A stretch of DNA of 64,000 bases from assembly GCF_014205845.1 (NCBI RefSeq), contig NZ_JACHCR010000016.1, forward strand, positions 98,519 to 162,518. The letters are read 5' to 3'. The DNA is from Mucilaginibacter cryoferens (GTDB lineage: Bacteria; Bacteroidota; Bacteroidia; Sphingobacteriales; Sphingobacteriaceae). The translations under genes and the position numbers were made by a program. The notes below the pieces were generated by a model. The model saw only the letters and a program-made list of their open reading frames with translations. It ran no database searches and was not told the DNA's origin. Shown in pieces: positions 14,604-64,000 of this stretch (positions within the stretch are counted from its first letter, which is position 1; every line of letters starts with the position of its first letter).

Positions 14604-14994
14604 GTCATTGCGCGACAGCGTGGCAACCGGAGGGAACCCAGAAAAAACAGTAATGACATCCTAAAAAGACCGTCCTTGCGAGGAGGTACGACGAAGCAAT
14701 CCCCGACTTACAGAGTAGCTGTGCAAATCCGCCCTGTATTTTGGGGATTGCTTCGTCGTACCTCCTTATAATGACATGCTTTTAAAGTATTGATTATCAG
14801 TGTGTGTTTTTTCAAGCACAACACCATCGCCGCCGTCATTGCGAGGTACGAAGCAATCCCCGACTTACAGAGTCGCTATGCAAATCAGCCCTGTAAGTCG
14901 GGGATTGCTTCGTCGTACCTCCTCGCAAGGACGGTCTTTTTAGGATGTCATTACTGTTTTTTCTGGGTTACCCCCGGTTGTCACTCGCAATGAC
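14604..14994. repeat. MITE-like element with 79-bp perfect inverted arms
   Basis: The left arm at 14635-14713 is perfectly complementary to the right arm at 14891-14969 (79 bp each, 177 bp apart). Outside the arms, imperfect inversion continues to GTCATTGCG at 14604 and CGCAATGAC at 14986-14994, and beyond that to TTGATAATCAA near 15030. Inside are two copies of the palindromic unit also found in four copies at 344-1086. No coding sequence is present. The rest of the 14451-15211 gap holds only degenerate fragments of similar sequence. It lies between two terminators of converging operons, a site where insertion does little harm. Confidence 0.85.
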
Positions 14995-15812: not shown

Positions 15813-15890
15813 TGTTATTAAATTATTTCACGTGCATACCGTCTGGTGATTAACTCAAACCTTCGGAATTATGCCTTCGCTATTTTTATT

Positions 15891-16025
15891 AGATTTGAGA
15901 TGTTAGATTTGAGATATGAGACAAAATGCTCAGCAATCAATTCCTGATCCCGTTTATTGTTAAATAAAAAATGTTAGATTTTAAGAGCGAGAATAATCTC
16001 ATGTCTCAAAATCTAACATCTCTTA
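15891..16025. repeat. Heptamer-repeat inverted pair, rpoA-rplQ gap
   Basis: The left arm at 15891-15922 reads as period-7 units AGATTTG, AGATGTT, AGATTTG, AGATATG. The right arm at 15998-16025 is the reverse complement of similar units (TCTCAAAATCTAACATCT). A third partial copy, ATGTTAGATTTT, lies between them at 15971. The RNA could fold into one long hairpin between rpoA and rplQ. Confidence 0.75.
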
Positions 16026-16027
16026 CC

Positions 16028-17020
16028 TTATTCTTCGTCTAACTTAAATTTAGACAGGTTCATACCAAAAGATAAGCCTTTTGATTTAACCAGGTCCTGA
16101 ATTTCAGTTAATGATTTTTTACCAAAGTTTCTGAATTTCAACATATCAGCAACATCATACGATACTAAATCGGCAAGGCTACGGATATCTGCAGCTTTAA
16201 GGCAATTTAATGCACGTACAGAAAGGTCAAGATCAACTAATTCTGTTTTAAGGATCTTACGCATGTGTAAAATTTCCTCATCAACTTCTTTAGTTTCTTC
16301 CTTAGCCTGAGCCTCAAGCATCATGTTCTCATCGCTGAACAACATAAAGTGCTGGATAAGGATCTTTGCAGCTTCCTTTAAAGCATCTTCAGGATGAACA
16401 GATCCATCGGTAGCAATATCCAATACTAATTTCTCATAGTCGGTTTTTTGCTCAACACGATAGTTTTCGATGGTATATTTAACGTTCTTTATCGGCGTAA
16501 ATATAGAGTCGATAGCGATAACGCCAACATTTGCATCAGGGTTTTTGTTCTCTTCGCTTGGAACGTAACCACGGCCTTTACCAACTGTAAGCTCAATTTC
16601 AAGCGTTACAGATGAGTCCATGTTACATAAAACCAGATCAGGATTTAATACTGTAAAGTTGTTAGAGAACTTTGTGATGTCTCCGGCTTTAAAAGCATCC
16701 TGGCCATTTATAATAACAAATATTTTCTCGTTGTCGCCAGATTCACCAGTCTTTTTAAAACGAACTTGTTTAAGGTTCAAGATGATTTCGGTTACGTCTT
16801 CAACAACACCTTTGATGGTTGAAAACTCATGCGTTACTCCTGAGAAACGTACAGAAGTAATTGCATAACCTTCGAGTGATGAAAGTAAGATACGACGTAG
16901 AGCATTACCAATGGTTACACCAAAACCTGGTTCTAACGGACGAAATTCAAACGTACCATCAAAATCATTTGCTTTTTGCATGATAACCTTGTCTGGTTTT
17001 TGAAATGCTAAAATTGCCAT
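16028..17020 (-). CDS. rpoA: RNA polymerase subunit alpha
   Basis: A 330-residue alpha subunit. The N-terminal assembly domain (about 1-235) carries [20 protein letters not shown] and [12 protein letters not shown], typical of the dimer interface. The C-terminal domain (about 255-330) has [16 protein letters not shown] and FGKKSLTEI, which contact UP elements and activators. It sits between rpsD and rplQ, as in most bacteria. Both flanking gaps (187 and 215 bp) are unusually long for this operon and contain heptamer repeats. Confidence 0.98.
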
Positions 17021-17052
17021 TTATATCCTTTATTTATTGTTTACTTGATTAT

Positions 17053-17210
17053 AGATTTGAGATGTGAGATTTGAGGTGTGAGACTTTACTCACGTTATTC
17101 CGAAATCCTATATCTAAACTCTCTTACTTATTTCCTATTGCAATTATATGAAACCAGAAAAGAGATTTGAAAAAAACTCTCAAATCTCATATCTTATGTC
17201 TCATATCTTA
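17053..17210. repeat. Heptamer-repeat inverted pair, rpsD-rpoA gap
   Basis: The left arm at 17053-17084 reads AGATTTG, AGATGTG, AGATTTG, AGGTGTG, AGAC. The right arm at 17177-17210, read on the other strand, gives AGATATG, AGACATA, AGATATG, AGATTTG. The words are nearly those of the rpoA-rplQ element, so the two are related. Confidence 0.8.
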
Positions 17211-17816
17211 TTTAGAATACAACTCGACGATTAGGTTTTCCTTGATGTTCTCAGGGATCTCATCGCGGTTAGGATAATTAAGGAATGTACCTGTTAATTC
17301 ATTTGCATCCCAAGCTAACCAGCTGTATTTGTTGATTCTTCTTCCAGCCACTGATGTAGCAATAGCTTCAAGTGATTTTGATTTCTCACGTACAGATATT
17401 ACGTCACCAGCTTTTAATGCGTATGATGCGATGTTTACAACAGCACCGTTAACATTAATGTGTTTGTGGTTAACCAGTTGGCGAGCTCCTGAACGTGTAG
17501 GTGATATACCTAAACGATAAACAGCGTTATCTAAACGGGCTTCTAAAAATTTCAGCAGGTTTTCGCCTGTGATACCTTCTTTAGCCGAAGCACGGTGAAA
17601 CAAGTTTTCGAACTGACGCTCTAATACACCGTAAGTGTATTTAACTTTTTGTTTCTCCATTAACTGGGTCGAATATTCTGATTGTTTTCCACGACGTTTG
17701 GAAGCACCGTGCATTCCTGGCGGGTAGTTTTTACGTTCTAACGCTTTATCCGGACCGAAAATAGGCTCACGGAAACGACGGGCAATTTTGGACTTTGGTC
17801 CTGTATATCTGGCCAT
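17208..17816 (-). CDS. rpsD: 30S ribosomal protein S4
   Basis: A 202-residue S4, one of the first proteins to bind 16S rRNA and a translational repressor in many bacteria. The N-terminal domain ([15 protein letters not shown]) lacks the CxxC zinc cysteines of other S4 forms. The S4 RNA-binding fold spans about 92-155 ([20 protein letters not shown]). It lies 65 bp after rpsK and 187 bp before rpoA. Confidence 0.97.
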
Positions 17817-17881
17817 TTTTGTGTATTTTTAAAGTATCATACAGCCTTTCGCTGTAGAATCTTAGCTTTAAAATCTGTTAA

Positions 17882-18271
17882 TTAAACTCTTCTTCTTTTA
17901 GACGGACGGCAACCATTGTGTGGAAGCGGTGTAATATCTCTGATTGTGGTAACTTCGATACCTGCAGTTTGCAAAGTACGGATAGCTGACTCACGACCGG
18001 CACCAGGGCCTTTTACAAACACTTCAACTTTACGTAAACCTAAGTCGTACGCAACTTTACCGCAATCGCCGGCAGCTTGACCTGCAGCATACGGAGTGTT
18101 TTTCTTAGAACCTTTAAAGCCCATTTTACCAGCAGATGACCATGAAATAGCCTGGCCGGTTTTGTTGGTAAGGGTGATGATAATGTTGTTAAAAGTTGCA
18201 TTGATGTGTGCTTCGCCAACAGGCTCTACAATTACAATGCGCTTTTTGGTAACTTTTTTACTTTTAGCCAT
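17882..18271 (-). CDS. rpsK: 30S ribosomal protein S11
   Basis: A 129-residue S11 of the 30S platform. The conserved stretches are [18 protein letters not shown], the glycine-rich [12 protein letters not shown] and the C-terminal [13 protein letters not shown]. The length matches the family. It follows rpsM after 129 bp, a gap holding an octamer-repeat stretch. Confidence 0.98.
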
Positions 18272-18278
18272 TTTTTTA

Positions 18279-18313
18279 ATTATTGAATTAATGAATTACT
18301 GAGTTATAGAATA
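18279..18313. repeat. Octamer-repeat stretch, rpsM-rpsK gap
   Basis: Units GAATTAAT, GAATTACT, GAGTTATA, GAATAA follow one another with a period of 8. The same word family occurs in the rpmJ-rpsM gap. No clear second arm was found here. Confidence 0.6.
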
Positions 18314-18400
18314 ACCCGGACCCACTAATCGTGATTATAATTTTTTGTTCCTGGTAAGCTTAAAGTATATAACTACCCGCCGCTAACCAATCGTCATTTA

Positions 18401-18778
18401 CTACTTAGTAGCTTTCTTTTTGTTAGCAACTGTTTTACGTTTTCCTTTACGGGTACGTGAGTTGTTTTTAGTACGCTGACCACGTAATGGTAAACCTTTA
18501 CGGTGACGGGTACCACGGTAACAACCGATATCCATTAAACGTTTGATGTTCAATTGCACTTCTGAACGAAGTGAACCTTCTACCTTAATCTGATCGTTAA
18601 TGATCCCACGAATAGAGGCTAACTGATCATCACTCCAGTCTTGAACTTTAGTGTTAAAATCGATACCTGCCTCAGTCAAAATCTTTTGAGCTGTTGAGCG
18701 GCCTATACCGAAGATGTACGTAAGTCCGATTTCTCCTCTTTTATTTTTTGGTAAATCAATACCTGATATCCTTGCCAT
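18401..18778 (-). CDS. rpsM: 30S ribosomal protein S13
   Basis: A 125-residue S13 of the 30S head, which contacts the 50S subunit and P-site tRNA. It starts [19 protein letters not shown] and keeps [15 protein letters not shown] (helix-hairpin-helix) and [19 protein letters not shown]. The basic C-terminal tail is Lys/Arg-rich. It follows rpmJ after 89 bp. Confidence 0.98.
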
Positions 18779-18791
18779 ATTTTATCTTAAT

Positions 18792-18864
18792 TTATTGAGT
18801 TATCGAATTATTGAATTATCGAATCCTATTAATCAGCAATTCAATATTCTCCAATTCAAAATTG
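18792..18864. repeat. Octamer-repeat inverted pair, rpmJ-rpsM gap
   Basis: The left arm at 18792-18826 reads GAGTTATC, GAATTATT, GAATTATC, GAATCC with a period of 8. The right arm at 18835-18864 (CAATTCAATATTCTCCAATT) is roughly the inverse. It fills nearly the whole 89-bp gap. Confidence 0.65.
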
Positions 18865-18867
18865 TTC

Positions 18868-18984
18868 TTAGCCCTGGCGTTGTTTGTACTTAGGATTCTT
18901 TTTGTTAATAACGTAAAGTTTCCCGTTACGGCGAATGATTTTACAATCTGCGCTGCGTTTTTTAATGGATGCTCTAACTTTCAT
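18868..18984 (-). CDS. rpmJ: 50S ribosomal protein L36, zinc-free form
   Basis: A 38-residue protein translated by hand from 18984: [20 protein letters not shown], then [18 protein letters not shown]. The length and the ends MKVRAS and KYKQRQG identify L36. Of the four usual zinc ligands (C11, C14, C27, H33) only Cys14 remains; the others are Ser11, Asn27 and Tyr33. This is therefore the C-minus form that does not bind zinc. It lies 7 bp after infA, the usual order. Confidence 0.95.
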
Positions 18985-18991
18985 CTCGTGT

Positions 18992-19210
18992 TTATTTATA
19001 TCTATAGGTTATTCTACCTTTACTTAAATCGTATGGGCTCATTTCTAATTTCACTCTGTCGCCAGGTAAAATTTTGATATAGTGCATACGCATCTTGCCG
19101 GAAATGTGCGCAATAATCTCGTGACCATTTTCAAGTTCAACCCTGAACATTGCATTTGACAATGCCTCCCTAATTGTACCGTCTTGCTCAATCGAAGATT
19201 GTTTAGCCAT
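18992..19210 (-). CDS. infA: Translation initiation factor IF-1
   Basis: A 72-residue S1/OB-fold protein ([20 protein letters not shown], then [20 protein letters not shown] and the conserved [20 protein letters not shown]). It binds the 30S A site and helps IF-2 and IF-3 select the initiator tRNA. It is 63 bp downstream of map. That gap contains TAATTTTG on the minus strand (19255-19262), a possible internal -7 box without a good -33 partner. Confidence 0.98.
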
Positions 19211-19273
19211 ATTTTGTTGATTATTACTTAATTATCCGCCCTAAAACCGGGATGCAAAATTAATAAAAATTAT

Positions 19274-20065
19274 TTAATTATTATTCTTTTCTTTTAAAAC
19301 ATTATCAACAAATTCAAACGTTGATAAAATGTCTGGTTTACCTTTGCCTATTGCAACGGTATGCTCGTAATGCGCTGATGGTTTTTTATCCACTGTTGAT
19401 ACCGTCCAGCCATCATCCCAAAACTTAACACCGGCACGGCCGGCGTTTATCATGGGTTCGATAGCTATCACCATCCCCTCTTCAAGCTTAATACCGGCTC
19501 CACGTTTACCGTAGTTAGGTACTTCGGGCTTCTCATGCAGTTTAACACCAACACCGTGCCCTACAAGCTCTTTAACTACGCCAAAGCCATTCTTCTCCGC
19601 ATGTTCCTGTATCGCGTAGCCTATATCACCTATACGCATGCCAACAACCGCTTTAGCAACACCCAGGTCTAAACACTCTTTGGTTACCCTCATGAGTTTT
19701 TTAACCATGTCACTTACTTCACCAATGGCAAAAGTATAAGCCGAGTCGCCAACAAAACCGTTTAGAATAGCTCCGCAATCAACAGAAACCAAATCTCCTT
19801 CTACCAATACATGCTTTCCGGGGAAACCATGTACAACCTGGTCATTTAAAGATATGCAAAGGGAATAAGGGAAACCGCCGTAGTTTAAAAAGGCGGGGAT
19901 ACCGCCGTTATCGCGTATAAAGGTTTCTGCAAGTCTGTCGAGTTGAATAGTAGTAACACCAGGGCCTATTATTTTTGCAACCTCAGCGTGTGTTCTGGAC
20001 ACCAGCAGGGCGCTTTCCCTAATGAGCTCTATCTCCTCGGCAGACTTATAAATTATTTTTGACAT
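19274..20065 (-). CDS. map: Methionine aminopeptidase, type I
   Basis: A 263-residue type I enzyme that removes the N-terminal methionine of new proteins. The metal-ligand motifs are in order: VVHGFPG, VDCGAILNGFVGDSAYTF (two aspartates), GHGVGVKLHEKP (histidines), AIEPMI and YEHTVAI (glutamates). It lies 6 bp after secY and before infA. The adk gene often found next to secY is absent, as is common in this phylum. Confidence 0.97.
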   Translation of the reverse strand: MSKIIYKSAEEIELIRESALLVSRTHAEVAKIIGPGVTTIQLDRLAETFIRDNGGIPAFLNYGGFPYSLCISLNDQVVHGFPGKHVLVEGDLVSVDCGAILNGFVGDSAYTFAIGEVSDMVKKLMRVTKECLDLGVAKAVVGMRIGDIGYAIQEHAEKNGFGVVKELVGHGVGVKLHEKPEVPNYGKRGAGIKLEEGMVIAIEPMINAGRAGVKFWDDGWTVSTVDKKPSAHYEHTVAIGKGKPDILSTFEFVDNVLKEKNNN

Positions 20066-20071
20066 TACTAA

Positions 20072-21412
20072 TTAGATCACTGTCGGACTTGTTCCGGCAG
20101 CAGCAGGCATTGCTGTACGTCCTTTAATTCGTCCGGTTTTCATTAAACCATCGTAATGGCGCATCAACAGGTGGCTTTCTATTTGTTGCAGTGTATCTAA
20201 CACAACACCCACCAGGATGATCAACGATGTACCACCAAAAAATCTTGCGAATATTGGAGACACACCAACCAAACTGGCAATTGCAGGTATAATTGCTACA
20301 ATAGCAAGGAAAATAGATCCTGGTAAGGTAATTCTCGATATCACCGCGTCAATATAATCGGCAGTTGATTTACCTGGTTTAACGCCGGGGATAAAGCCGC
20401 CATTCTTCTTCATATCATCAGCCATTTGGTTAGGGTTAACCGTAATAGCAGTGTAGAAGTAAGTAAACAAGATGATCAGAATACCAAACAGCGTATTATG
20501 CTGCCATGAATTATAATTTGATAACGCAATTAAAATACCGTTTGATGATATGCTTGGCATAAACTGTTGTACAGTTTGAGGTATAAACATTAATGCCTGG
20601 GCAAAAATGATTGGCATAACACCGGCAGCATTAACCTTTAAAGGTATATACTGACGTACGCCGCCATATTGTTTATTACCTACTATGCGTTTAGCATATT
20701 GTACCGCAATTTTACGTGTACCCTGTACAATCATGATAGTGAACATTACCACACCAATAAGACCCACGATTTCAACAATAAAAGATACTAAACCTCCTGC
20801 ACCACTGGTACGGGAGTTAAACTCTGTTAAAAACGCACCTGGCAACTGGGCAATAATACCAACCATAATGATAAGTGATATACCATTACCAATACCTTTG
20901 TCTGTAATTTTTTCGCCCAGCCACATTACAAATAATGTACCTGCGGTTAAAACAAACATGTTAAGTATGGTAAAAAATGGGTTGCTTATCAGCATTGCTT
21001 CCGGAGAGATCTGCGATTTAAGGTAACCTATAGCCTGCAGAGCAGTGATACCTATGGTTAGGTAACGTGTCCACTGGTTAAGTTTGTTACGGCCGCTTTC
21101 GCCCTCTTTTTGCAATTTGGTAAAGTATGGAACTGCGATACCTAATAATTGCACCACAATTGAAGCCGAGATATAAGGCATTACACCCAATGCAAAAATA
21201 GAGGAACGCGAAAACGATCCTCCTGCAAACATATTCAGCAATCCTACTAATCCTTCTGCTTTTTGGTTAGCTACTGACGCAGGATTAACCCCCGGTAGTA
21301 CCACAAAGGAACCTACGCGATATATTAAAAGAAATAAGAGTGTGTTTAAAATACGCACTCTCAGATCTTCGATTTTCCAGATATTGGATAATGTGGTGAA
21401 AAATTTCTTCAT
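20072..21412 (-). CDS. secY: Protein translocase subunit SecY
   Basis: A 446-residue polytopic inner membrane protein with ten predicted membrane segments, the channel of the Sec translocon. Typical stretches are FLLIYRVGSFVVLPGVNP (TM1), YISASIVVQLLGIAVP (TM2), GNGISLIIMVGIIA and the C-terminal LLMRHYDGLMKTGRIKGR. It is co-transcribed with rplO (7 bp apart) and map (6 bp), so translocon supply follows ribosome synthesis. Confidence 0.98.
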   Translation of the reverse strand: MKKFFTTLSNIWKIEDLRVRILNTLLFLLIYRVGSFVVLPGVNPASVANQKAEGLVGLLNMFAGGSFSRSSIFALGVMPYISASIVVQLLGIAVPYFTKLQKEGESGRNKLNQWTRYLTIGITALQAIGYLKSQISPEAMLISNPFFTILNMFVLTAGTLFVMWLGEKITDKGIGNGISLIIMVGIIAQLPGAFLTEFNSRTSGAGGLVSFIVEIVGLIGVVMFTIMIVQGTRKIAVQYAKRIVGNKQYGGVRQYIPLKVNAAGVMPIIFAQALMFIPQTVQQFMPSISSNGILIALSNYNSWQHNTLFGILIILFTYFYTAITVNPNQMADDMKKNGGFIPGVKPGKSTADYIDAVISRITLPGSIFLAIVAIIPAIASLVGVSPIFARFFGGTSLIILVGVVLDTLQQIESHLLMRHYDGLMKTGRIKGRTAMPAAAGTSPTVI

Positions 21413-21419
21413 CCTAAAA

Positions 21420-21866
21420 TTATAGCTTAACTATGGTACCACCAGCTGCTTCAATAGCTTTTTGAGCCGTAGCAGTAAATGCATGTGCCTTAACTTCTAA
21501 TTTGGCAGTTAATTCGCCACGACCAAGGATTTTAACCAGATCGTTACGAGACACCAAACCGTGCAATTTCAAAGTATCAAAATCGACAACATCAAGTGTG
21601 TATTTTGTTACTAATTCTTGCAATACATCAAGGTTTACACCTGTGTATTCAATACGGTTAGGATTTTTAAAACCAACCTTAGGCACACGGCGCTGCAAAG
21701 GCATCTGACCGCCTTCAAAACCAACCTTAGTGCTTGTACCTGAACGTGAACCGGCACCTTTATGGCCCCGGGTTGACGTACCGCCACGGCCAGAACCTGT
21801 ACCACGGCCAATTCTTTTTCTATTTTTAGTAGAACCTTCTGCAGGTTTTAAATTACTTAAATTCAT
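21420..21866 (-). CDS. rplO: 50S ribosomal protein L15
   Basis: A 148-residue L15, a late-assembly 23S rRNA-binding protein. The N-terminus is the usual Gly/Arg-rich extension (KRIGRGTGSGRGGTSTRGHK), followed by FEGGQMPLQRRVPKVGF. It lies between rpmD (4 bp) and secY (7 bp), the standard spc order. Confidence 0.98.
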   Translation of the reverse strand: MNLSNLKPAEGSTKNRKRIGRGTGSGRGGTSTRGHKGAGSRSGTSTKVGFEGGQMPLQRRVPKVGFKNPNRIEYTGVNLDVLQELVTKYTLDVVDFDTLKLHGLVSRNDLVKILGRGELTAKLEVKAHAFTATAQKAIEAAGGTIVKL

Positions 21867-21870
21867 GATA

Positions 21871-22050
21871 TTAAATATTTTCTACCGCTACCAGGTGGTT
21901 AACTTTTCTAACCATACCAATTATAGCTGCAGTTGCCTCAACTTCCACACTGTGGTTAATTTTACGCAAGCCTAATGCTTCGACAGTCCTTTTTTGGCGC
22001 TCACTTCTGTCGATCACGCTCTTAATCTGAGTTATTTTGATTTTGGCCAT
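21871..22050 (-). CDS. rpmD: 50S ribosomal protein L30
   Basis: A 59-residue protein translated by hand: MAKIKITQIKSVIDRSERQK, then TVEALGLRKINHSVEVE and IIGMVRKVNHLVAVE. The length and the motif LGLRKINHSVE identify L30. It lies 5 bp after rpsE and 4 bp before rplO. Confidence 0.96.
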   Translation of the reverse strand: MAKIKITQIKSVIDRSERQKRTVEALGLRKINHSVEVEATAAIIGMVRKVNHLVAVENI

Positions 22051-22055
22051 GACGA

Positions 22056-22574
22056 TTATCCGTTAAATACTTTACCTAAACTAATGCCACGTTGCTGTGC
22101 TACTGTATGTGCATCACGTAATTGTGATAACGCAGATACGGTTGCTTTAACCACGTTGTGCGGATTTGATGAACCTTTTGATTTTGCTAACACGTTGTGG
22201 ATACCTGCAGACTCTAACACTGCACGCATTGCACCACCTGCGATAACACCGGTACCATTTGCTGCTGGTTTCAAGAAAACGAAACCGCCGCTAAATTTAC
22301 CAATTTGCTCGTGAGGGATAGTGTTGTTGATAATAGGAACTTTAACTAAGTTCTTTTTAGCATCATCAATACCTTTTGCAATTGCTTCAGTAACCTCTTT
22401 TGCTTTACCTAATCCGTAACCTACAACACCGTTCTCATCGCCTACAACCACAATGGCTGAAAAGCTGAAAGTACGACCACCTTTGGTTACTTTGGCAACA
22501 CGTTGTATGCTTACCAAGCGGTCTTTTAATTCGATCTCGCTTGTTTTTACTCTTTTTATGTTGATTGTTGACAT
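22056..22574 (-). CDS. rpsE: 30S ribosomal protein S5
   Basis: A 172-residue S5, important for decoding fidelity. The N-terminal dsRNA-binding-like domain ([38 protein letters not shown]) is followed by the C-terminal domain with [17 protein letters not shown] and [11 protein letters not shown]. It lies in the usual spc order between rplR and rpmD. Confidence 0.98.
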
Positions 22575-22586
22575 TTCTCTGTTCGA

Positions 22587-22937
22587 TTAAAAGTTTAAAC
22601 CACCTTCACGTGCACCTTCGGCCAGTGACTTAACACGACCATGGTACAAATAACCGTTTCTGTCGAAAACCACATCTTTGATACCTGCTGCGATAGCTTT
22701 TTGAGCTACCAGTTTGCCTACGGCTACTGATTGATCAGATTTTGTGCCATCAGCTGCAAAGTCTTTTGATAAAGATGATGCTGATACGATAGTTTTACCG
22801 GTTAAATCGTCAATGATCTGCGCGTAAATACCTTTATTGCTCCTAAATACTGACAGGCGAGGACGCTCTGTTGATCCTGAAAGGCGTTTTCTAATACCTT
22901 TTTTAATCCTGTCTCTTCTTGATAATTTAGCTCCCAT
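22587..22937 (-). CDS. rplR: 50S ribosomal protein L18
   Basis: A 116-residue L18, which with L5 binds 5S rRNA. It shows the basic N-terminus [20 protein letters not shown], then [18 protein letters not shown] and the C-terminal [18 protein letters not shown]. It lies 5 bp after rplF and 12 bp before rpsE. Confidence 0.98.
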
Positions 22938-22942
22938 GACGA

Positions 22943-23500
22943 TTATTTTTTAGATGCTGATTTACCTGCTTTTCTTCTCAATATCTCGCCTACAAACTTA
23001 ATACCTTTACCTTTGTAAGGCTCTGGAGTACGTAATGAGCGTATTTTTGCAGCTACCTGGCCAATTAACTGTTTGTCAATTGATTCAAGTATGATAGTTG
23101 GGTTTTTACCCTTATCAGCAGTGGTTGTAACTTTAATTTCTGTTGGCAATTCAAATACATAGTGGTGAGAGTAACCCAACACTAAATCTAATGTATTACC
23201 GGTATTGGTAGCACGGTAACCTACACCAACTAATTCTTGCTGTATTTTGTAACCATCTGTTACACCTGTTACCATGTTATTTAAAAGCGAACGGTATAAA
23301 CCGTGTAATGCTTTGTGACGTTTCTGATCAGACGGGCGTTGAACCAGTAACTGACCATCTTCCTGTGCAATGGTGATATCGCTATCAACCGCTTGCTGCA
23401 ACTCACCTTTAGGGCCTTTTACAGTAACAACATTCTCTGCTGATACGGTAATAGTAACTCCTGCTGGTATTGCTATCGGTGCTTTTCCTACTCTTGACAT
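22943..23500 (-). CDS. rplF: 50S ribosomal protein L6
   Basis: A 185-residue L6 near the factor-binding site. It has two related domains ([27 protein letters not shown]; then LVGVGYRA and [15 protein letters not shown]) and a basic C-terminus. It lies 16 bp after rpsH. Confidence 0.98.
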
Positions 23501-23516
23501 TGCTTAATTTCTCCTA

Positions 23517-23915
23517 TTAATAAACGTAGCATAAAACTTCGCCACCAACATTTAACTGACGGGCTTCTTTATCAGACATTACGCCTTTAGAAGTTGACAG
23601 GATGGCGATACCTAAACCATTTAATACTCTTGGCATTTTTTCCATGCCTGCGTATTTCCTCAAACCTGGTTTACTGATGCGCGTAATGCTACGGATAGCA
23701 GAAATTTTAGTTATTGGGTGGTATTTTAAAGCCACTTTAATAGTGCCTTGTACTGTACCATCTTCAAACTTGTAATTGGCAATGTAACCTTTGTCGAAAA
23801 GCACCTTAGTGATTTCCTTTTTCAGATTTGATGCAGGAATTTCAACAACCCTATGGTTGGCTTTAATAGCATTCCTTACTCTTGTAAGATAATCTGCGAT
23901 TGGATCTGTATTCAT
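23517..23915 (-). CDS. rpsH: 30S ribosomal protein S8
   Basis: A 132-residue S8, a primary 16S rRNA binder and, in E. coli, repressor of the spc operon. It shows DPIADYLTRVRNAIKANH, SKPGLRKYAG and the C-terminal GLGIAILSTSKGVMSDKEAR. It is 190 bp downstream of rpsN, the second longest gap within the operon, and that gap contains a heptamer-repeat pair. Confidence 0.98.
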   Translation of the reverse strand: MNTDPIADYLTRVRNAIKANHRVVEIPASNLKKEITKVLFDKGYIANYKFEDGTVQGTIKVALKYHPITKISAIRSITRISKPGLRKYAGMEKMPRVLNGLGIAILSTSKGVMSDKEARQLNVGGEVLCYVY

Positions 23916-23990
23916 TTTATTGGGTTATGATAGTGGTTTCCTCCCCGTAACATCCGGGCCGACCTTCCATCGGTTAATTCTTTTTTTGTA

Positions 23991-24093
23991 TCTCGGATTT
24001 GGAATGTTCGATTTCGGATTTATCCCCTCAAACTACAATTTCCGATTTAACACAAAATATCAAATTCCGAAATGAAATTCCGAAATCCGATAT
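23991..24093. repeat. Heptamer-repeat inverted pair, rpsN-rpsH gap
   Basis: The left arm at 23991-24021 reads GGATTTG, GAATGTT, CGATTTC, GGATTT. The right arm (about 24038-24093) holds the inverse words AATTCCGAAAT and TTCCGAAATCCGATAT with one phase slip. Almost the same left-arm sequence occurs at 42198-42230 in an unrelated gap. Confidence 0.75.
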
Positions 24094-24105
24094 TTTATTT
24101 TTTGC

Positions 24106-24375
24106 TTACCAGCTTGCTTTCTTTACTCCCGGGATCTTGCCATCAAGAGCCATTTCACGGAATGTAACGCGTGAAATACCAAACTGACGCATGTAACCAC
24201 GTGGGCGACCGGTTAATTTACAACGGTTGTGTAATTTTACCGGAGATGATGCTTTAGGTAATTTATCTAAACCAACGTAATCGCCGGCTTCTTTAAGGGC
24301 TGCTCTTTTCTCTGCGTATTTAGCAACCAATTTAGCGCGCTTTACTTCACGAGCTTTTACACCTTCTTTAGCCAT
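24106..24375 (-). CDS. rpsN: 30S ribosomal protein S14, zinc-free form
   Basis: An 89-residue S14 started at [16 protein letters not shown]; the ATG at 24375 overlaps the rplE stop by 8 bp, and an upstream start at 24405 would only add residues lying inside rplE. The C-terminal [20 protein letters not shown] is the C-minus type: only one cysteine of the zinc motif is present. The family sits in the 30S head. Confidence 0.97.
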
Positions 24376-24931
24376 TGCTATTTTGATTTTTAAATGGTAA
24401 TCCAAATTGTTTCAACAACTCCAATGCTTCAACATCGTTTGTTGCGGAGGTTACAAAGGTAATATCCATACCTTGGATTTTATTGATTTTGTCAATATTT
24501 ATCTCAGGGAATATAATTTGCTCTGTAATACCTAAAGTATAGTTACCTCTTCCGTCAAAACCTTTATCGTTGATGCCTTTAAAATCACGGATACGTGGCA
24601 GGGCAACTGCGATTAAACGATCTAAAAACTCGTACATTGTGTTGTCACGCAAGGTAACACGTACGCCTACCGGCATATTTTTACGCAATTTAAAGTTAGA
24701 GATATCTTTTTTAGATTTTGAAGATACTGCTTGCTGGCCAGTGATGGTTGTAAGCTCGGTGATTGTGTTCTCGATAAGTTTTTTATCGGTAGTAGCACCG
24801 CCAACACCCTGGTTAATGGCAATTTTCTCCAATTTAGGAACTTGCATTACGCTTTTGTACTGAAATTTATCTTTCAGCGCGGTGCGAATTTCGTCCTTGT
24901 ATTTTGTTTTTAATCTCGGTATGTAAGTCAT
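24368..24931 (-). CDS. rplE: 50S ribosomal protein L5
   Basis: A 187-residue L5, which binds 5S rRNA and contacts S13 and P-site tRNA. It shows [31 protein letters not shown] and the C-terminal [10 protein letters not shown] and [10 protein letters not shown]. Its start ATG shares one base with the rplX stop, and its end overlaps rpsN, so translation of the three is probably coupled. Confidence 0.98.
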
Positions 24932-25275
24932 TACTTAATTTCCTCCCCTGATTTTTTTGCTACCCTTACTAATTTGCCGGCATCGTTCAATTTACGGCCA
25001 ACACGGGTTGTATTACCTGTTTTAGGATCAACCAGCATTAGGTTTGAAATATGTATAGCAGCTTCTTGTTTAACAATTCCGCCGTTAGGATTAGCAGCAT
25101 TAGGTTTAGTATGTTTTGATACCATATTGGCACCTTCAACAATAGCTCTGCCTTTGTCAACTAATACTTCAACAATTTTGCCTTGTGTTCCTTTTGAATC
25201 ACCGGCCATAACCTTTACTAAATCACCTTTACGGATCTTTAATTTGGTTGGTTGTACGTGTTTTTTCTTTTCCAT
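24931..25275 (-). CDS. rplX: 50S ribosomal protein L24
   Basis: A 114-residue L24, an assembly initiator with a KOW motif ([40 protein letters not shown]). It lies 2 bp after rplN and overlaps rplE by one base. Confidence 0.98.
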
Positions 25276-25277
25276 GA

Positions 25278-25646
25278 TTACAATACCTCTGGTGCTAATG
25301 ATACAATTTTCATAAATTGTTTCTCACGCAGTTCTCTTGCAACCGGGCCAAAGATACGTGTGCCTCTTGGCTCATCCTGGTTATTTAACAAAACAGCTGC
25401 GTTATCGTCGAAACGGATGTATGAACCATCTTTTCTGCGGATTTCTTTTTTGGTGCGTACTACTACGGCTTTTGATACAGTACCTTTTTTAACGTTACCT
25501 GAAGGTAAAGCGCTTTTTACGGTTACTACTATCTTATCGCCGATAGATGCATACCTTTTACCGGTACCACCTAACACACGGATCACTAAAACTTCTTTAG
25601 CGCCACTGTTATCGGCTACGTTTAATCTTGATTCCTGTTGTACCAT
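25278..25646 (-). CDS. rplN: 50S ribosomal protein L14
   Basis: A 122-residue L14 ([57 protein letters not shown]), which forms an intersubunit bridge. The length is standard. One base separates it from rpsQ. Confidence 0.98.
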
Positions 25647-25647
25647 C

Positions 25648-25902
25648 TTATTTAGCCCTTTCTAAAATTTGAACTAATCTCCAGTTTTTGCTCTTGCTAA
25701 GCGGGCGGGTTTCCATAATCAATACGGTATCGCCAATTCCACAAGTGTTGGTCTCATCATGAGCCATAAATTTTGTGGTTTTTTTCACGAATTTACCGTA
25801 GATAGGGTGTTTTACTTTACGCTCAACAGCCACTACAATAGATTTCTCCATCTTATTGCTAACCACCAGGCCGGTACGTGTTTTTCTTAAATTTCTTTCC
25901 AT
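25648..25902 (-). CDS. rpsQ: 30S ribosomal protein S17
   Basis: An 84-residue OB-fold protein ([53 protein letters not shown]), a primary 16S rRNA binder. It lies 20 bp after rpmC. Confidence 0.98.
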
Positions 25903-25922
25903 TTTTCTGAATGCTTAAAAAA

Positions 25923-26132
25923 TTAATTCTTTTCAGAAGCCGACGCCGCTTTGCGTTTTGTTAATTCAGTATTTAACTGAGCAATTCCCTTGCGTACCTT
26001 TGTTATACGGGTTGGATTCTCAATAGCCGACACTGCGTGCGCAAATTTCAATTTGGTTAGGGTTGACCTCTCCTCGCTTAGTTTTGCATTCAATTCTTCG
26101 GTTGATAGCTCCAAAATTTCTGAGTTTTTCAT
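25923..26132 (-). CDS. rpmC: 50S ribosomal protein L29
   Basis: A 69-residue two-helix protein (LSTEELNAKLSEERSTLTKL, then FAHAVSAIENPTRITKVRK) at the tunnel exit, where signal recognition particle and trigger factor dock. It follows rplP after 81 bp, a gap that contains a heptamer-repeat pair. Confidence 0.97.
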   Translation of the reverse strand: MKNSEILELSTEELNAKLSEERSTLTKLKFAHAVSAIENPTRITKVRKGIAQLNTELTKRKAASASEKN

Positions 26133-26144
26133 TTTCTTATTATT

Positions 26145-26209
26145 GTTTTGAGTTTTTAGTTCTAAGCCTACTATACCAAACTGATAACCGCAAACTCAAA
26201 ACCGCTGAC
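26145..26209. repeat. Heptamer-repeat inverted pair, rplP-rpmC gap
   Basis: The left arm at 26145-26166 reads GTTTTGA, GTTTTTA, GTTCTAA. The right arm at 26178-26209, read on the other strand, gives GTCAGCG, GTTTTGA, GTTTGCG, GTTATCA. The arms share an 11-bp perfect inversion, GTTTTGAGTTT at 26145-26155 with its complement at 26192-26202. Confidence 0.75.
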
Positions 26210-42191: not shown

Positions 42192-42197
42192 CTTTTT

Positions 42198-42230
42198 GAT
42201 TTCGGATTTGGGATGTTCGATTTCGGATTT
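42198..42230. repeat. Heptamer-repeat stretch, single arm
   Basis: GATTTCG, GATTTGG, GATGTTC, GATTTCG, GATTT run in perfect period 7 beginning 7 bp after the stop codon of the coiled-coil protein. It is nearly identical to the left arm in the rpsN-rpsH gap. No inverted partner is seen before the NUDIX gene. Confidence 0.75.
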
Positions 42231-45574: not shown

Positions 45575-45725
45575 AATGTGATTTAAATATCGTTCAAGTT
45601 TGTGTTTGTTTGATGATATAAAAGTACAATGGTTAGCTAAAAACACCTATACAATATAGGTTAGCAGGTACAACAAGTCGGTGAATTACCTTGTTTTGGC
45701 GGTGAAACTCCCGGGGCTAAGCCCT

Positions 45726-45867
45726 AAGTCAGAAGTCTTAAGTCGGAAGTTTTAAGTGTTAAGTCAAAAAACGCCTCAGATATAAGGTTCCTCCAAAGTT
45801 CCGGGTCATTAAATCTAAAATAACGAAATCAGACTTTGAACTTTAGCCTTAGCACTTTCCACTTAAA
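45726..45867. repeat. Heptamer-repeat inverted pair, AAGT family
   Basis: The left arm at 45726-45766 reads AAGTCAG, AAGTCTT, AAGTCGG, AAGTTTT, AAGTGTT, AAGTC without a slip. The right arm at 45831-45867, read on the other strand, gives AAGTGGA, AAGTGCT, AAGGCTA, AAGTTCA, AAGTCT. It lies between the PspC and SDR genes. The same words recur at 50491-50636. Confidence 0.85.
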
Positions 45868-49417: not shown

Positions 49418-50491
49418 ATGAAATTAAAAAACATTCTACTATCTGCTACCCTGCTTTTATCGTCTATTATACTATTACCCGGCTGCTCGCACAGCGACAA
49501 GGTCGGAACAACAGATAGTAAGAAAACTGCCCCTAAAACCGCCGCCGATTCGGCAAAGGCCGAAGCTGCAGATACACTGAGCGTAAAAAAATCAGAATAT
49601 CCTCCGGTAGATAAAAAACTATACGATTCGTTATTGAAATTTAATGCTCATGGCGATACTACCGGCAGATGGCCCGTTAAAAACGCACCATACCCTGTAG
49701 GCGGCGCTATTTTGCCATTTAAACGCGTGGTTGCTTTTTACGGTAACCTATACAGCAAAAAGATGGGTATTTTAGGCGAGTTACCTCCTAAGGAAATGTT
49801 GGCCAAACTAAAAGGCGAAGTTAAACATTGGGAAAAAGCCGATCCTAAAACTCCTGTACAACCAGCCTTGCATTACATTGCGGTTGTTGCACAGGGCGAT
49901 GGTGGTAAAGATGGCAAGTTCCGTTACAGGATGCCGTTTAAACAGATAGACAGCGTATTGGTATTAGCTAAAAAAGCGCATGCCATTGTATTTTTGGATG
50001 TACAGGTTGCTTTAAGCAACATACAGGCCGAATTGCCTTTGTTAGATAAATACCTGGCTATGCCACAAGTACACTTTGGTATGGACCCAGAATTTTCGAT
50101 GAAAGATGGTACCAAACCAGGCCGCAAAATTGGAACTTATGATGCTGCTGATATCAATTTTGTATCAGACCATTTGGCTAAAATTGTAAAGAAAAATGGC
50201 TTGCCGGCAAAAATTTTAATTATTCACCGCTTTACCAAAAAAATGGTGACCAACTACAAAAGCATCAAACTGCACCCGGAAGTTCAATTGGTAATGGATA
50301 TGGACGGCTGGGGTGAGCCAGACCTTAAAACAGGCACTTACCGCTACTTTATTAACCAGGAGCCGGTACAGTTTACTGGCTTTAAACTGTTTTACAAAAA
50401 CGACATCAAAAAAGCCCCTCACCACATGCTAACGCCAGAGGAGGTTTTATCAAGATACAAACCGTATCCTATTTACATTCAATACCAATAA
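49418..50491 (+). CDS. Lipoprotein of unknown function, TIM-barrel-like
   Basis: A 357-residue lipoprotein (signal ending in LLPGC, Cys23), followed by an Ala/Lys/Asp-rich linker to about residue 60. The conserved-looking body has VVAFYGNLYSKKMGILGE, HAIVFLDVQVALSNIQAELP, HFGMDPEFSMKDGTKPGRKI and LIIHRFTKKM. The DPEFSM-x5-KPG pattern recalls a family of secreted proteins in Actinobacteria with DPEWRM-like motifs; that comparison is from memory. The alternation of strands and helices suggests a TIM barrel, perhaps a glycosidase. Function unknown. Confidence 0.72.
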   Translation: MKLKNILLSATLLLSSIILLPGCSHSDKVGTTDSKKTAPKTAADSAKAEAADTLSVKKSEYPPVDKKLYDSLLKFNAHGDTTGRWPVKNAPYPVGGAILPFKRVVAFYGNLYSKKMGILGELPPKEMLAKLKGEVKHWEKADPKTPVQPALHYIAVVAQGDGGKDGKFRYRMPFKQIDSVLVLAKKAHAIVFLDVQVALSNIQAELPLLDKYLAMPQVHFGMDPEFSMKDGTKPGRKIGTYDAADINFVSDHLAKIVKKNGLPAKILIIHRFTKKMVTNYKSIKLHPEVQLVMDMDGWGEPDLKTGTYRYFINQEPVQFTGFKLFYKNDIKKAPHHMLTPEEVLSRYKPYPIYIQYQ

Positions 50492-50636
50492 GTCTTAAGT
50501 GAGAAGTTCTAAGTCTTAAGTAAAAAGTCTCAGGTCAGAAATATTTATATTTTTGGTCTGAGACTTTTTACTTTTAGTATACTTTTGATTACGGACTAAC
50601 TACCGACTTAAGACTCAGAACTACAGACTTAAAAAA
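50491..50636. repeat. Heptamer-repeat inverted pair, AAGT family
   Basis: The left arm reads AAGTCTT, AAGTGAG, AAGTTCT, AAGTCTT, AAGTAAA, AAGTCTC, AGGTCAG. The right arm carries the inverse words. The two arms meet in a 16-bp perfect stem, AAGTAAAAAGTCTCAG (50518-50533) with its complement at 50558-50573. It begins on the last base of the lipoprotein stop codon and fills the whole gap to the next gene. Confidence 0.85.
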
Positions 50637-62462: not shown

Positions 62463-63908
62463 ATGAAGGTGTTACTTGCCGGTGCTAATGGTTATATAGG
62501 AACAAGGCTTATCCCGGTTTTGCTGGCGAAAGGCCATGAGGTTGTTTGCCTGGTACGCGATAAGCGGCGTTTTCATGAGCACAGCGACTTTTGCGCCAAA
62601 GTAACCCTGATAACCGGCGACCTGCTCCGCGAACAAAGCATCGAGGATTTCCCCACTGATATTGATGCTGCCTACTACCTGGTACACTCCATGTCGCAGG
62701 CACAGGATTTTGCGGCATTGGAGGCTCTTTCGGCCTATAATTTTGTGCATGCGCTGGATAAAACCAATTGCCGCCAAACTATATATCTAAGCGGCATCAC
62801 CAATGACGATAAACTCTCTAAACACCTCCAATCGCGCAGGCATGTAGAGGATGTTTTAAAAGAAAGCAAATCGGCATTAACGGTATTGAGGGCTGCCATT
62901 ATCATCGGCTCGGGCAGTGCATCGTTCGAGATCATCCGCGACCTTACCGAAAAGCTACCCGTAATGACCGTTCCCCGCTGGGTAAATACCCGTTGCCAGC
63001 CCATAGGCATCCGCGATGTACTGGGCTACCTGGAAGGGGTAATGCTTAACGAAAAAGCATTTAATAAAACCTTCGACATTGGCGGACCGGATATTTTATC
63101 GTTTAAAGATATGATGCTGGTATACGCCAAAGTACGTAAGCTTAAAAGGCATATATTTATTATTCCGTTTCTCTCGCCCAAAATCTCATCGTATTGGTTG
63201 TATTTTGTTACTTCTACCAGCTACACCCTTGCACAAAGCCTGGTAAATAGCATGAAGAACGAAACCATTATGCGGGATCATAGCATTGATGATGTGGTAT
63301 CCCGCCAATGTTTAACTTACCAGGAAGCCCTTAACCTGGCATTTGTCAAAATTGAGCAAAACTCTATCGTATCCAGCTGGAAAGATGCCCTTAACATGGG
63401 CTACCTTAATTCGGGTTTTATGGACCAGATAAAGGTGCCGCAAAATGGCACGCTGGAGTACAAGGTAAAAATTCCCTTTGAGCGCGATACCCAGGATGTG
63501 TTTACCAATTTTATGTCGATAGGCGGTAACCGGGGCTGGTACTATTGGGACTGGATCTGGAACGTACGTGGCTTTCTGGATAAGTTATTTGGCGGCGTAG
63601 GCATACGCCGGGGCCGTACCAGCAGCATCAACATAGCACCGGGTGATGTAATTGATTTTTGGCGGGTGTTACTTGCCGATAAAGAAAACAAACGCCTGCT
63701 CTTATACGCCGAAATGAAACTACCGGGCGAAGCCTGGCTCGAATTTAAAATAATTGAACGCAATGGCATCAAAAACCTGAGCCAGGTAGCTACCTTTAGG
63801 CCCAGTGGCTTATGGGGCCGCCTGTACTGGTATACCATGTGGCCTTTCCACCTGTTTATTTTTAACGGAATGGCCAAAGAGATCATCCATTACGGGGAGG
63901 GAGTATAG
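62463..63908 (+). CDS. NAD(P)-binding epimerase-like protein with DUF2867
   Basis: A 481-residue two-domain protein started at the ATG at 62463 (MKVLLAGANGYIGTRLIPVL); a GTG at 62454 would add three residues. The N-terminal atypical SDR (1-about 290) has GANGYIG as cofactor motif and the partner segment YYLVHSMSQAQDF. The C-terminal DUF2867 domain (about 320-481) has GDVIDFWRVLLADKENKRLL and AEMKLPGEAWLEFKI. This fusion is widespread; its reaction is not established. It is followed at once by the heptamer repeat at the window end. Confidence 0.87.
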   Translation: MKVLLAGANGYIGTRLIPVLLAKGHEVVCLVRDKRRFHEHSDFCAKVTLITGDLLREQSIEDFPTDIDAAYYLVHSMSQAQDFAALEALSAYNFVHALDKTNCRQTIYLSGITNDDKLSKHLQSRRHVEDVLKESKSALTVLRAAIIIGSGSASFEIIRDLTEKLPVMTVPRWVNTRCQPIGIRDVLGYLEGVMLNEKAFNKTFDIGGPDILSFKDMMLVYAKVRKLKRHIFIIPFLSPKISSYWLYFVTSTSYTLAQSLVNSMKNETIMRDHSIDDVVSRQCLTYQEALNLAFVKIEQNSIVSSWKDALNMGYLNSGFMDQIKVPQNGTLEYKVKIPFERDTQDVFTNFMSIGGNRGWYYWDWIWNVRGFLDKLFGGVGIRRGRTSSINIAPGDVIDFWRVLLADKENKRLLLYAEMKLPGEAWLEFKIIERNGIKNLSQVATFRPSGLWGRLYWYTMWPFHLFIFNGMAKEIIHYGEGV

Positions 63909-64000
63909 TCATTGGTCATTGGTCATTGGTCATTGGTCATTGGTCATTGGTCATTGGTCATTGGTCATTGGTCATTGGTCATTGGTCATTGGTCATTGGT
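63909..64000. repeat. Perfect TCATTGG heptamer tandem repeat, open at the window end
   Basis: TCATTGG is repeated without a mismatch for the last 92 bases, about 13 copies, starting 1 bp after the stop codon of the SDR/DUF2867 gene and running off the window. The period matches the degenerate heptamer elements elsewhere in the window, so this may be a young, unmutated member. Confidence 0.95.

Follow-up and report, generated by a model that had tools for sequence, protein, structure and literature searches.

Exchangeable inverted heptad arrays in the ribosomal protein superoperon of Mucilaginibacter: candidate mobile cassettes that may fold a stop codon against the next start

The intergenic elements that come closest to those considered here belong to a few described classes. 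Correia and RUP elements are miniature inverted-repeat transposable elements (MITEs) flanked by a TA duplication, the cyanobacterial STRR heptanucleotide repeats are direct repeats of fixed words that are not known to have inverted arms, and in horizontal regulatory transfer intergenic alleles are replaced while the flanking genes are kept. The present work concerns a stretch of 64,000 nucleotides (the window, C16:98519-162518) from the 6.95 Mb genome of the soil bacterium Mucilaginibacter cryoferens, whose rpoA product is 99% identical to that of M. aquaedulcis, and, in particular, six gaps of its ribosomal protein (r-protein) superoperon that carry tandem words of 7 or 8 bases, in most cases as two inverted arms (C, L and G labels denote contigs, loci of relatives and genomes, G000 being the source genome itself). 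These heptad elements are like Correia and RUP MITEs in being small, intergenic and interspersed, with inverted ends and TA flanks; they share the 7-base period with STRR repeats, which differ by their fixed words and, as far as is known, by lacking inverted arms. To our knowledge, stems of loosely defined heptad words that lie between a stop and a start codon and differ between sister species match no known element.

Other likenesses are only partial. In the same phylum, the BrickBuilt elements of Porphyromonas gingivalis, located 49-591 nt from genes, also combine tandem repeats with inverted ends, the 23-nt tandem unit lying inside the element (PMC4596501). Unlike in MITEs and BrickBuilt, the ends of the heptad elements are themselves heptad arrays with a free position, many words follow one plan, the loops are not conserved and the arms sit at stop and start codons. 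Heptamer direct repeats of the word TAACTGA have been reported in Beggiatoaceae, cyanobacteria and some Bacteroidetes, in one genome mostly within several nt upstream of start codons, and other heptamer assemblages were noted in Bacteroidetes intergenic regions (MacGregor 2015, PMC4679880). These too are intergenic 7-base arrays, r-protein operons included, but they consist of a single fixed word in direct (once indirect) orientation, and the available text of that report describes no partner arm or stop-to-start span; the elements described here have many words, inverted pairs and, in the GATNTGA family, a free position in each unit. REP/BIME and the GTAG/CGTC-tagged palindromes are likewise short, present in many copies and proposed to act in mRNA; they are sorted by sequence, whereas in the heptad elements only the grammar is conserved (PMC3733652). 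Leader RNAs of r-protein operons in Bacteroidia and Flavobacteria, such as the S4 leaders before rpsD, are also hairpins in operon gaps of this phylum and have a conserved consensus (PMC7247131), whereas the heptad elements have no Rfam match, although conserved cores adjacent to them may be of the leader kind. Among the matches listed from the open-licence PMC literature, no description of inverted degenerate heptad arrays was found, the TAACTGA direct repeats and the BrickBuilt MITE being the nearest among them.

When compared with 500 dinucleotide shuffles per gap, rpoA-rplQ, rpsD-rpoA and rplP-rpmC are periodic at lags 7 and 14, with a lag-7 score reached by none of the shuffles, and rpsM-rpsK and rpmJ-rpsM are periodic at lag 8, again with no shuffle as high; the periodicity of rpsN-rpsH is the weakest of the six (lag-7 p 0.03, any-lag p 0.014). 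A sequence-only reading of the window had proposed such words for all six gaps, which are indeed all periodic at 7, 8 or 14, and had rightly placed inverse words in five of them, rpsM-rpsK being the exception, where the repeat search gave no inverted pair. Its contrast of gap lengths, 81-215 bp as opposed to less than 25 bp nearly everywhere else in the operon, is correct for the six but overlooks rpsK-rpsD (65), map-infA (63) and rpsC-rplP (49).

The class to which the six gaps belong extends over the genome. In the intergenic part (174 kb) of a scan of 1.264 Mb, composed of the window and 1.2 Mb of further sequence with genes called by a simple model that misses small ones, 43 arrays were counted at lag 7 and 22 at lag 8, where shuffled DNA yields 0.5 and 1.0; harmonics appear at lags 14, 16 and 21, and coding DNA, scaled to 174 kb, has 0.64 lag-7 and 0.32 lag-8 arrays. 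Both the excess of lag-7 autocorrelation over shuffled intergenic DNA and the spread of the elements, with word families recurring between gaps and species, agree with the sequence-only reading. For the superoperon, the gaps of 52 Mucilaginibacter loci were compared. Two species are present twice (L003/L186 and L011/L199), and identical gaps were entered once in the operon polarity and hairpin/T-run counts; L010 was left out of the concatenated set in the between-species gap comparison. Gaps containing N were excluded from the gap-identity pairs and from the operon counts of polarity, hairpin/T run and free bases, and short or long gaps from the inverted-repeat scan, the gap-identity comparison, the operon and looser polarity counts and the gap-closing tests. 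Relatedness among the operon sequences and the double representation of two species lead the shuffles to overstate significance.

The anatomy of the elements is largely uniform in orientation. The 607 gaps of up to 600 nt hold 108 inverted repeats, 98 of them with arms of at least 20 nt (25 periodic, 73 others). The G-rich arm is the 5' one in 25 of 25 periodic inverted repeats, and the non-periodic ones divide 39:29, with 5 ties; outside the operon a looser filter finds the G-rich arm first in 26 of 30, and within the superoperon the same holds for 197 of 203 distinct gaps, with 6 opposite. In a view that involves no such filtering, neighbouring GATNTGA dimers on opposite strands less than 600 nt apart are arranged plus-then-minus in 20 of 20 cases (from the 100 listed of 106 own-genome matches). 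Since an inverted repeat is identical on both strands, the inward-facing G-bearing arrays are a property of the element. Arrays of translational stop codons and Rho loading come to mind as possible reasons for the G-before-C polarity. Compared by eye, 20 elements have an arm of about four units, in many cases with GAC behind it; a loop and the inverse arm come next, and the arm length is about 28-31 nt in the best-studied family. As in a MITE, the ends are terminal inverted repeats, with both arms drawn from one word family and the G strand inward; the interior is not shared among the 20 copies, although orthologous copies at one gap have a common core. More than a dozen words, including GATNTGA, GTATCAA, GAATCAA, TTAGNGA, GGATTTC and GTTGNAA, adopt this one anatomy.

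The dinucleotide TA directly precedes the first unit in 56 of 92 GATNTGA arrays, over a background of 9.3%. The corresponding counts are 30 of 95 for GTATCAA-like arrays and 32 of 107 for GAATCAA-like ones, both of which depend, like that for GTGATTA given below, on loose word matching. In the map-infA gap, empty alleles (L184, L185) end in CAGTAAAAT and filled alleles (L188, L190, L202) read ..TA[GAT..ATC]TAAAA; compared by sequence, the two states are consistent with a TA duplication, although the divergence of these species prevents a clean proof. As regards distribution, 102 of the 201 genomes surveyed in the order, from 8 of 15 genera, contain a GATNTGA trimer, compared with 2 of 201 for a reversed control pattern. 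In a phylum sample 13 of 296 genomes contain it, namely 4 of 8 family members and 9 of 288 others; these counts cover this word only. Its rarity outside the family makes GATNTGA mainly a Sphingobacteriaceae word family. Gaps of Pedobacter, Daejeonella, Olivibacter and Parapedobacter follow the same plan with other words; the G arm is first in 4 of 4 inverted pairs of genome G122, and in 200 kb of G266 no inverted pair passed the unit-structure filter. Far outside the family, in genome G496 of the same phylum but of another class, locus L360 has an inverted GATNTGA element that is degenerate and whose long 3' arm is built of nearly identical units; transfer and old age are both possible.

A further regularity is the position of the stems relative to genes. 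Among the loci examined, 44 GATNTGA stems comprise 35 in co-directional, 2 in convergent and 2 in divergent gaps, with 5 lacking an assignment, co-directional gaps being 381 of 661 in the sampled genome. In a count that sees stop codons only within 80 nt and starts only within 150 nt, the 5' arm begins at most 18 nt from the upstream stop in 31 of the 35 co-directional pairs, and the 3' arm ends at most 40 nt from the next start in 29, over spans of 46-634 nt. A test that ignores the word counts gap-closing stems in 29 of the 267 co-directional gaps, where 3.3 are expected; the numbers are 12 of 85 (0.3 expected) for convergent and 3 of 115 (3.7 expected) for divergent gaps. This first test had narrower end limits for some gap types, and the contrast held under equal limits of 40 nt with a score of at least 26, which gave 41 of 267 (8 in shuffles), 24 of 85 (1) and 8 of 115 (7), respectively; limits of 60 nt with a higher threshold gave 33 co-directional (4), 26 convergent (0) and 8 divergent stems (3), the convergent counts including ordinary terminators throughout. 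In the superoperon, the stems start at a median of 0-9 nt past the stop and end at a median of 10-14 nt before the start in four gaps and 32 nt in rpsD-rpoA; in rpsN-rpsH and rpoA-rplQ an additional conserved leader (~70 nt) follows the element. Stems enclose more of the gap than in shuffled gaps in 6 of 7 superoperon gaps, rpsN-rpsH being the exception. This geometry is meaningful in the light of published work on coupling: in experiments with E. coli and Haloferax, coupling by reinitiation is reported to be nearly lost once as few as about 20 nt separate the two codons (PMC10666635), and a review describes an RNA-unfolding model, the rpmI-rplT pair at +52 nt included, according to which structure that covers the downstream start is melted by the upstream ribosome (PMC12548453). 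Judged from position alone, the arrangement would fit a translational coupling element. As a side observation, long inverted repeats of GGAGCAAGGATTTTTGG words with loops of 134-436 nt lie at C2:88014, C3:247521, C3:250864 and C7:74046 of the own genome, all in convergent gaps; judged by these repeats, word families may favour certain gap types.

The elements turn over between species. Presence, absence and replacement between close species agree with the earlier suggestion of inserted elements, and in the same gaps of relatives the words differ and base-for-base conservation is not seen. For example, rplE, rpsN, rpsH and rpsE are 99.8-100% identical between L178 and L179, and their rpoA-rplQ gaps are unrelated; between L173 and L174 rpoA is 98.5% identical and the final 70 nt of the rpoA-rplQ gap are 100% identical, the rest of the gap being unrelated. 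Over nine gaps of 37 operon pairs, not independent of one another and with core genes 95-99.95% identical, a gap identity below 70% is confined to comparisons that include a periodic array (74 of 223; 0 of 108 where no array is present). Two co-directional gaps outside the operon have their slot filled in 13 of 13 genomes each (the own genome and 12 relatives), by three word families each: GATNTGA, GTATCAA or GAATCAA in the first, GATNTGA, GTATCAA or GTTGTAC in the second. The rpsC-rplP gap measures 47-56 nt in most species and 158-172 nt in those with an element allele, and in rpsD-rpoA the short and long alleles have a 3' flank in common, the position of the heptad hairpin of the latter being occupied by a plain hairpin in the former. 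Local import of flanking genes was considered as a cause of the gap swaps: in the 12 pairs compared, windows of 100 nt adjoining the rpoA-rplQ gap have 86-100% identity, with no clear mosaic. In the switched intergenic regions described with Piggy, alleles are replaced between nearly identical flanking genes (PMC5890482); here the swapped alleles are heptad cassettes, the exchange is between species and it takes place inside an r-protein operon. At L376, L381 and L384 half of the element is tandemly duplicated (two 3' arms or two 5' halves), possibly as an intermediate of replacement.

How could these features be combined? The explanation we favour, for which our judgement is evenly balanced, is that the elements are TA-flanked, MITE-like inverted cassettes which fold in the mRNA into a stop-to-start stem. 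The MITE-like part follows from the TA flanks, the inverted ends of near-constant length, the free interior and the presence/absence pattern, and a role of the RNA at gene ends is inferred from the geometry together with the few gap-closing stems of divergent gaps. Specifically, each cassette would consist of TA, an arm of about four heptads or octads, a free loop, the inverse arm of the same word family and TA. In the manner of miniature inverted-repeat elements, cassettes would be inserted and removed by some enzyme at TA sites near stop or start codons, and they would also be exchanged between species as intergenic alleles. In the mRNA the arms would pair through their common cores, giving a stem that reaches from the upstream stop to a point some 10 nt short of the next start and might keep a gap of 80-600 nt functionally short; alternatively, the terminating ribosome might open the downstream start, i.e. 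translational coupling. Cassettes would persist inside operons because the stop codon is folded against the next start, and in several r-protein gaps the element would also hold a T-tract hairpin where relatives have a plain one. A bolder version, which we find doubtful, regards the elements as a new class of RNA elements in operons defined by their grammar and not by sequence: heptad cassettes, swapped as alleles between species, that bridge stop and start over up to about 600 nt, keep adjacent genes coupled in translation, tolerate or even prefer one mismatch per seven pairs and have, for each word, their own TA-targeting recombinase.

A number of observations weigh against the favoured explanation. 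As for mobility, the loops of the 20 elements compared by eye are unrelated in length and sequence, unlike those of an ordinary MITE; in the GTGATTA family TA precedes only 12 of 90 arrays, near background; and rpsC-rplP alleles differ by whole-gap replacement rather than clean insertion. The search for a parent transposase, which covered the IS630 type (PF13358) only, gave a single gene whose ends do not match, and within that one family no autonomous element or long copy with matching ends was found. Only two gaps outside the operon have been followed through relatives at such depth. As for orientation and geometry, neighbouring arrays under a looser rule, at loci partly chosen from listed pairs, include 41 plus-minus but also 9 minus-minus, 6 plus-plus and 4 minus-plus arrangements; the looser polarity filter admits 7 stems in divergent gaps, 5 of them G-first, and divergent gaps are slightly above shuffles (8 vs 3) at the 60-nt limits. 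The short reach of the geometry count and the terminators among the convergent stems point the same way. As for pairing, the free base matches between arms in 35 of 97 positions (0.36; 26 pairs), which is the rate for arms swapped between loci, and in 47 hairpins, mostly from related operon gaps, it matches slightly less often than in randomly swapped arms. In other words, the arms share a word and not the letters of its free position; covariation of this position, sought as a sign of selection on the RNA, is absent, and pairing is therefore not refined beyond the core. As regards covariation in the large stem, RNAalifold, run without a control comparison, predicts 21 pairs in rpsC-rplP, 6 of which change on both sides, and 43 pairs in one rpoA-rplQ class, 3 of which do so; it finds no large stem in rpsM-rpsK and, in long rpsD-rpoA alleles, only 9 pairs without double changes. 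Finally, in one screen predicted structure just past the stop codon correlated negatively with coupling (PMC12548453), which favours gating over bridging or counts against either.

The sequence-only reading had proposed that the arrays grew in place by slippage; the model considered here adds template switching between arms as the source of the inverted copies. Direct and inverse arrays do exist, and 7 long arrays of more than six units, with runs of identical units, look slipped (adjacent identity 0.66 vs 0.55). The GATNTGA family as a whole (77 arrays, 311 units) has A101 T126 G74 C10 at position 4, the other six positions being 79-97% fixed in arrays selected by those same positions, and array length peaks at four units (47 of 78). 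For the 71 arrays with 3-6 units, the free base of a unit recurs in its neighbour in 38 of 212 cases (0.18, with 0.29 expected), and units two apart agree above chance (0.41 vs 0.30); in operon arrays neighbours have it in common in 23 of 239 cases, with 0.25 expected. Slippage predicts alike neighbours, yet neighbours avoid identity, and the arms are not copies of each other, so that slippage with template switching is rejected for normal arrays and as a general origin is hardly credible. Inverted arrays of binding sites for regulators that recognise DNA or RNA, with a separate regulator for each word family, would account for a core with a free position and for the inward orientation; we consider this very unlikely, as more than a dozen words share one anatomy, lie at gene ends and replace one another from species to species at a given gene pair. 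A somewhat doubtful but more serious alternative is that the elements are purely selfish, MITE-like, with the four heptads of each end serving as binding subsites for a recombinase that targets TA and has a different specificity in each word family. The geometry would then reflect insertion at the TA of stop codons (TA+G keeps TAG) between tightly spaced genes, and RNA pairing would be a by-product. Degeneracy confined to one position without arm-arm covariation resembles recognition by a protein, and arms of near four units, TA flanks, free loops, presence/absence between relatives and the overlap of the stop codon with the arm's first G, seen in 8 of 35 pairs, all agree with this model. Neither the two slots filled in every genome examined despite the change of family, nor divergent gaps with gap-closing stems near the shuffled level, are predicted by selfish insertion alone, and its enzyme and long copy were not found in the one transposase family searched.

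An attenuator is a further alternative, in which the 5' arm and a short inner anti-arm would form a T-tract hairpin and the outer 3' arm would act as anti-terminator, setting read-through of the superoperon. Within the first 95 nt, a hairpin followed by a T run is present in all 17 short rpsD-rpoA alleles, in 22 of the 30 long ones and in 36 of 49 rpoA-rplQ alleles (0, 3 and 3, respectively, after one mononucleotide shuffle each), relatives have plain terminator-like hairpins at the same place in superoperon gaps, and C3:67927 is a genomic example with an inner anti-arm and a T run. Nevertheless, the T run or the inner arm is missing in many of the 20 elements compared and is not general to the class, and convergent stems need no three-part design, so that we regard attenuation as unlikely. 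Next to the arrays, leader-like cores before rplQ, rpsH, rpsM and rpsK are conserved across Mucilaginibacter and partly in Pedobacter (L002-L012, L172-L211) and are candidate r-protein leaders; in the own genome the rpmJ-rpsM core (GTACAACGGTGGCCCGCCGTTC) is missing, with the 8-base element in its place, and L202 has both. Such leaders were considered as the source of the words and dismissed, since the cores exist beside the arrays but the words vary. Known RNA families were set aside too: Rfam gave 6 matches only in the window, every one below its gathering score, and no family at gathering score in the operons of 7 relatives.

Table 1. Positions in the window of the arms, arrays and neighbouring leader-like cores (the mRNA of the rpoA-rplQ gap is the minus strand).
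Feature	Position	Strand	Remarks
rpoA-rplQ outer arm, AGATTTG/GATNTGA heptads	15891..15921		3' arm on mRNA
rpoA-rplQ partner arm adjoining the rpoA stop	15995..16024		5' arm on mRNA
rpoA-rplQ short alternative hairpin, then T run on mRNA; terminator-like	15965..16025	-	arms 15965-15986 / 16004-16025
Leader-like core before rplQ, GCATAATTCC..GACGGTATGC on mRNA	15829..15874	-	conserved across Mucilaginibacter; outside the heptad element
rpsD-rpoA GATNTGA arm adjoining rpoA	17053..17083		periodic, inverted pair
rpsD-rpoA partner arm, immediately past the rpsD stop	17178..17207		inverted pair
rpsM-rpsK 8-base array, GAATTANT type, before rpsK	18278..18312		lag 8
rpmJ-rpsM 8-base array, TTATTGAA type, before rpsM	18792..18824		lag 8
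rpmJ-rpsM degenerate inverse arm past the rpmJ stop	18830..18859		repeat search
rpsN-rpsH GGATTTC-type arm, rpsH side	23990..24022		inverted pair
rpsN-rpsH partner arm, rpsN side	24062..24094		inverted pair
Leader-like core before rpsH, ACCGATNGNAGGTC..GGAAACCACTATC on mRNA	23922..23981	-	conserved; outside the heptad element
rplP-rpmC GTTTTGA-type arm	26145..26166		lag 7, inverted pair
rplP-rpmC partner arm	26181..26202		inverted pair
Same class elsewhere: GATTTCG-type lag-7 array	42193..42230		
Same class elsewhere: AAGTCNN-type lag-7 array	45717..45764		
Same class elsewhere: AAGTCTT-type arrays	50489..50573		end-to-end stem in co-directional gap

Other repeats were noted along the way. At positions 63908-64000 the window holds a perfect GTCATTG array of 13.3 copies, and the assembly of C16 (162518 bases) stops inside it. 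An interspersed palindrome of GTCATTGCGAGGTACGAAGCAATC type occupies positions 493-968 and 14841-14924 and recurs at many intergenic sites; in genome G103 one such palindrome lies inside the element at the orthologue of C3:67927. Another family of long palindromes, non-periodic and with CCCCCTAAATCTCCCCC-type arms, is found in intergenic DNA of the own genome, e.g. at C1:135217 and C2:72747.

Should the stem of the heptad cassettes prove functional, it would illustrate how insertions of 80-600 nt can be accommodated in an operon despite a coupling limit of about 20 nt (PMC10666635), and it would offer a convenient test system in a harmless genus. If, on the other hand, the elements are purely mobile, they would be elements with ends of four degenerate heptads, a free interior and replacement of families at fixed slots, which implies a new enzyme. 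In either case, elements without conserved sequence evade homology-based repeat finders, and therefore a class common in the Sphingobacteriaceae could go unannotated.

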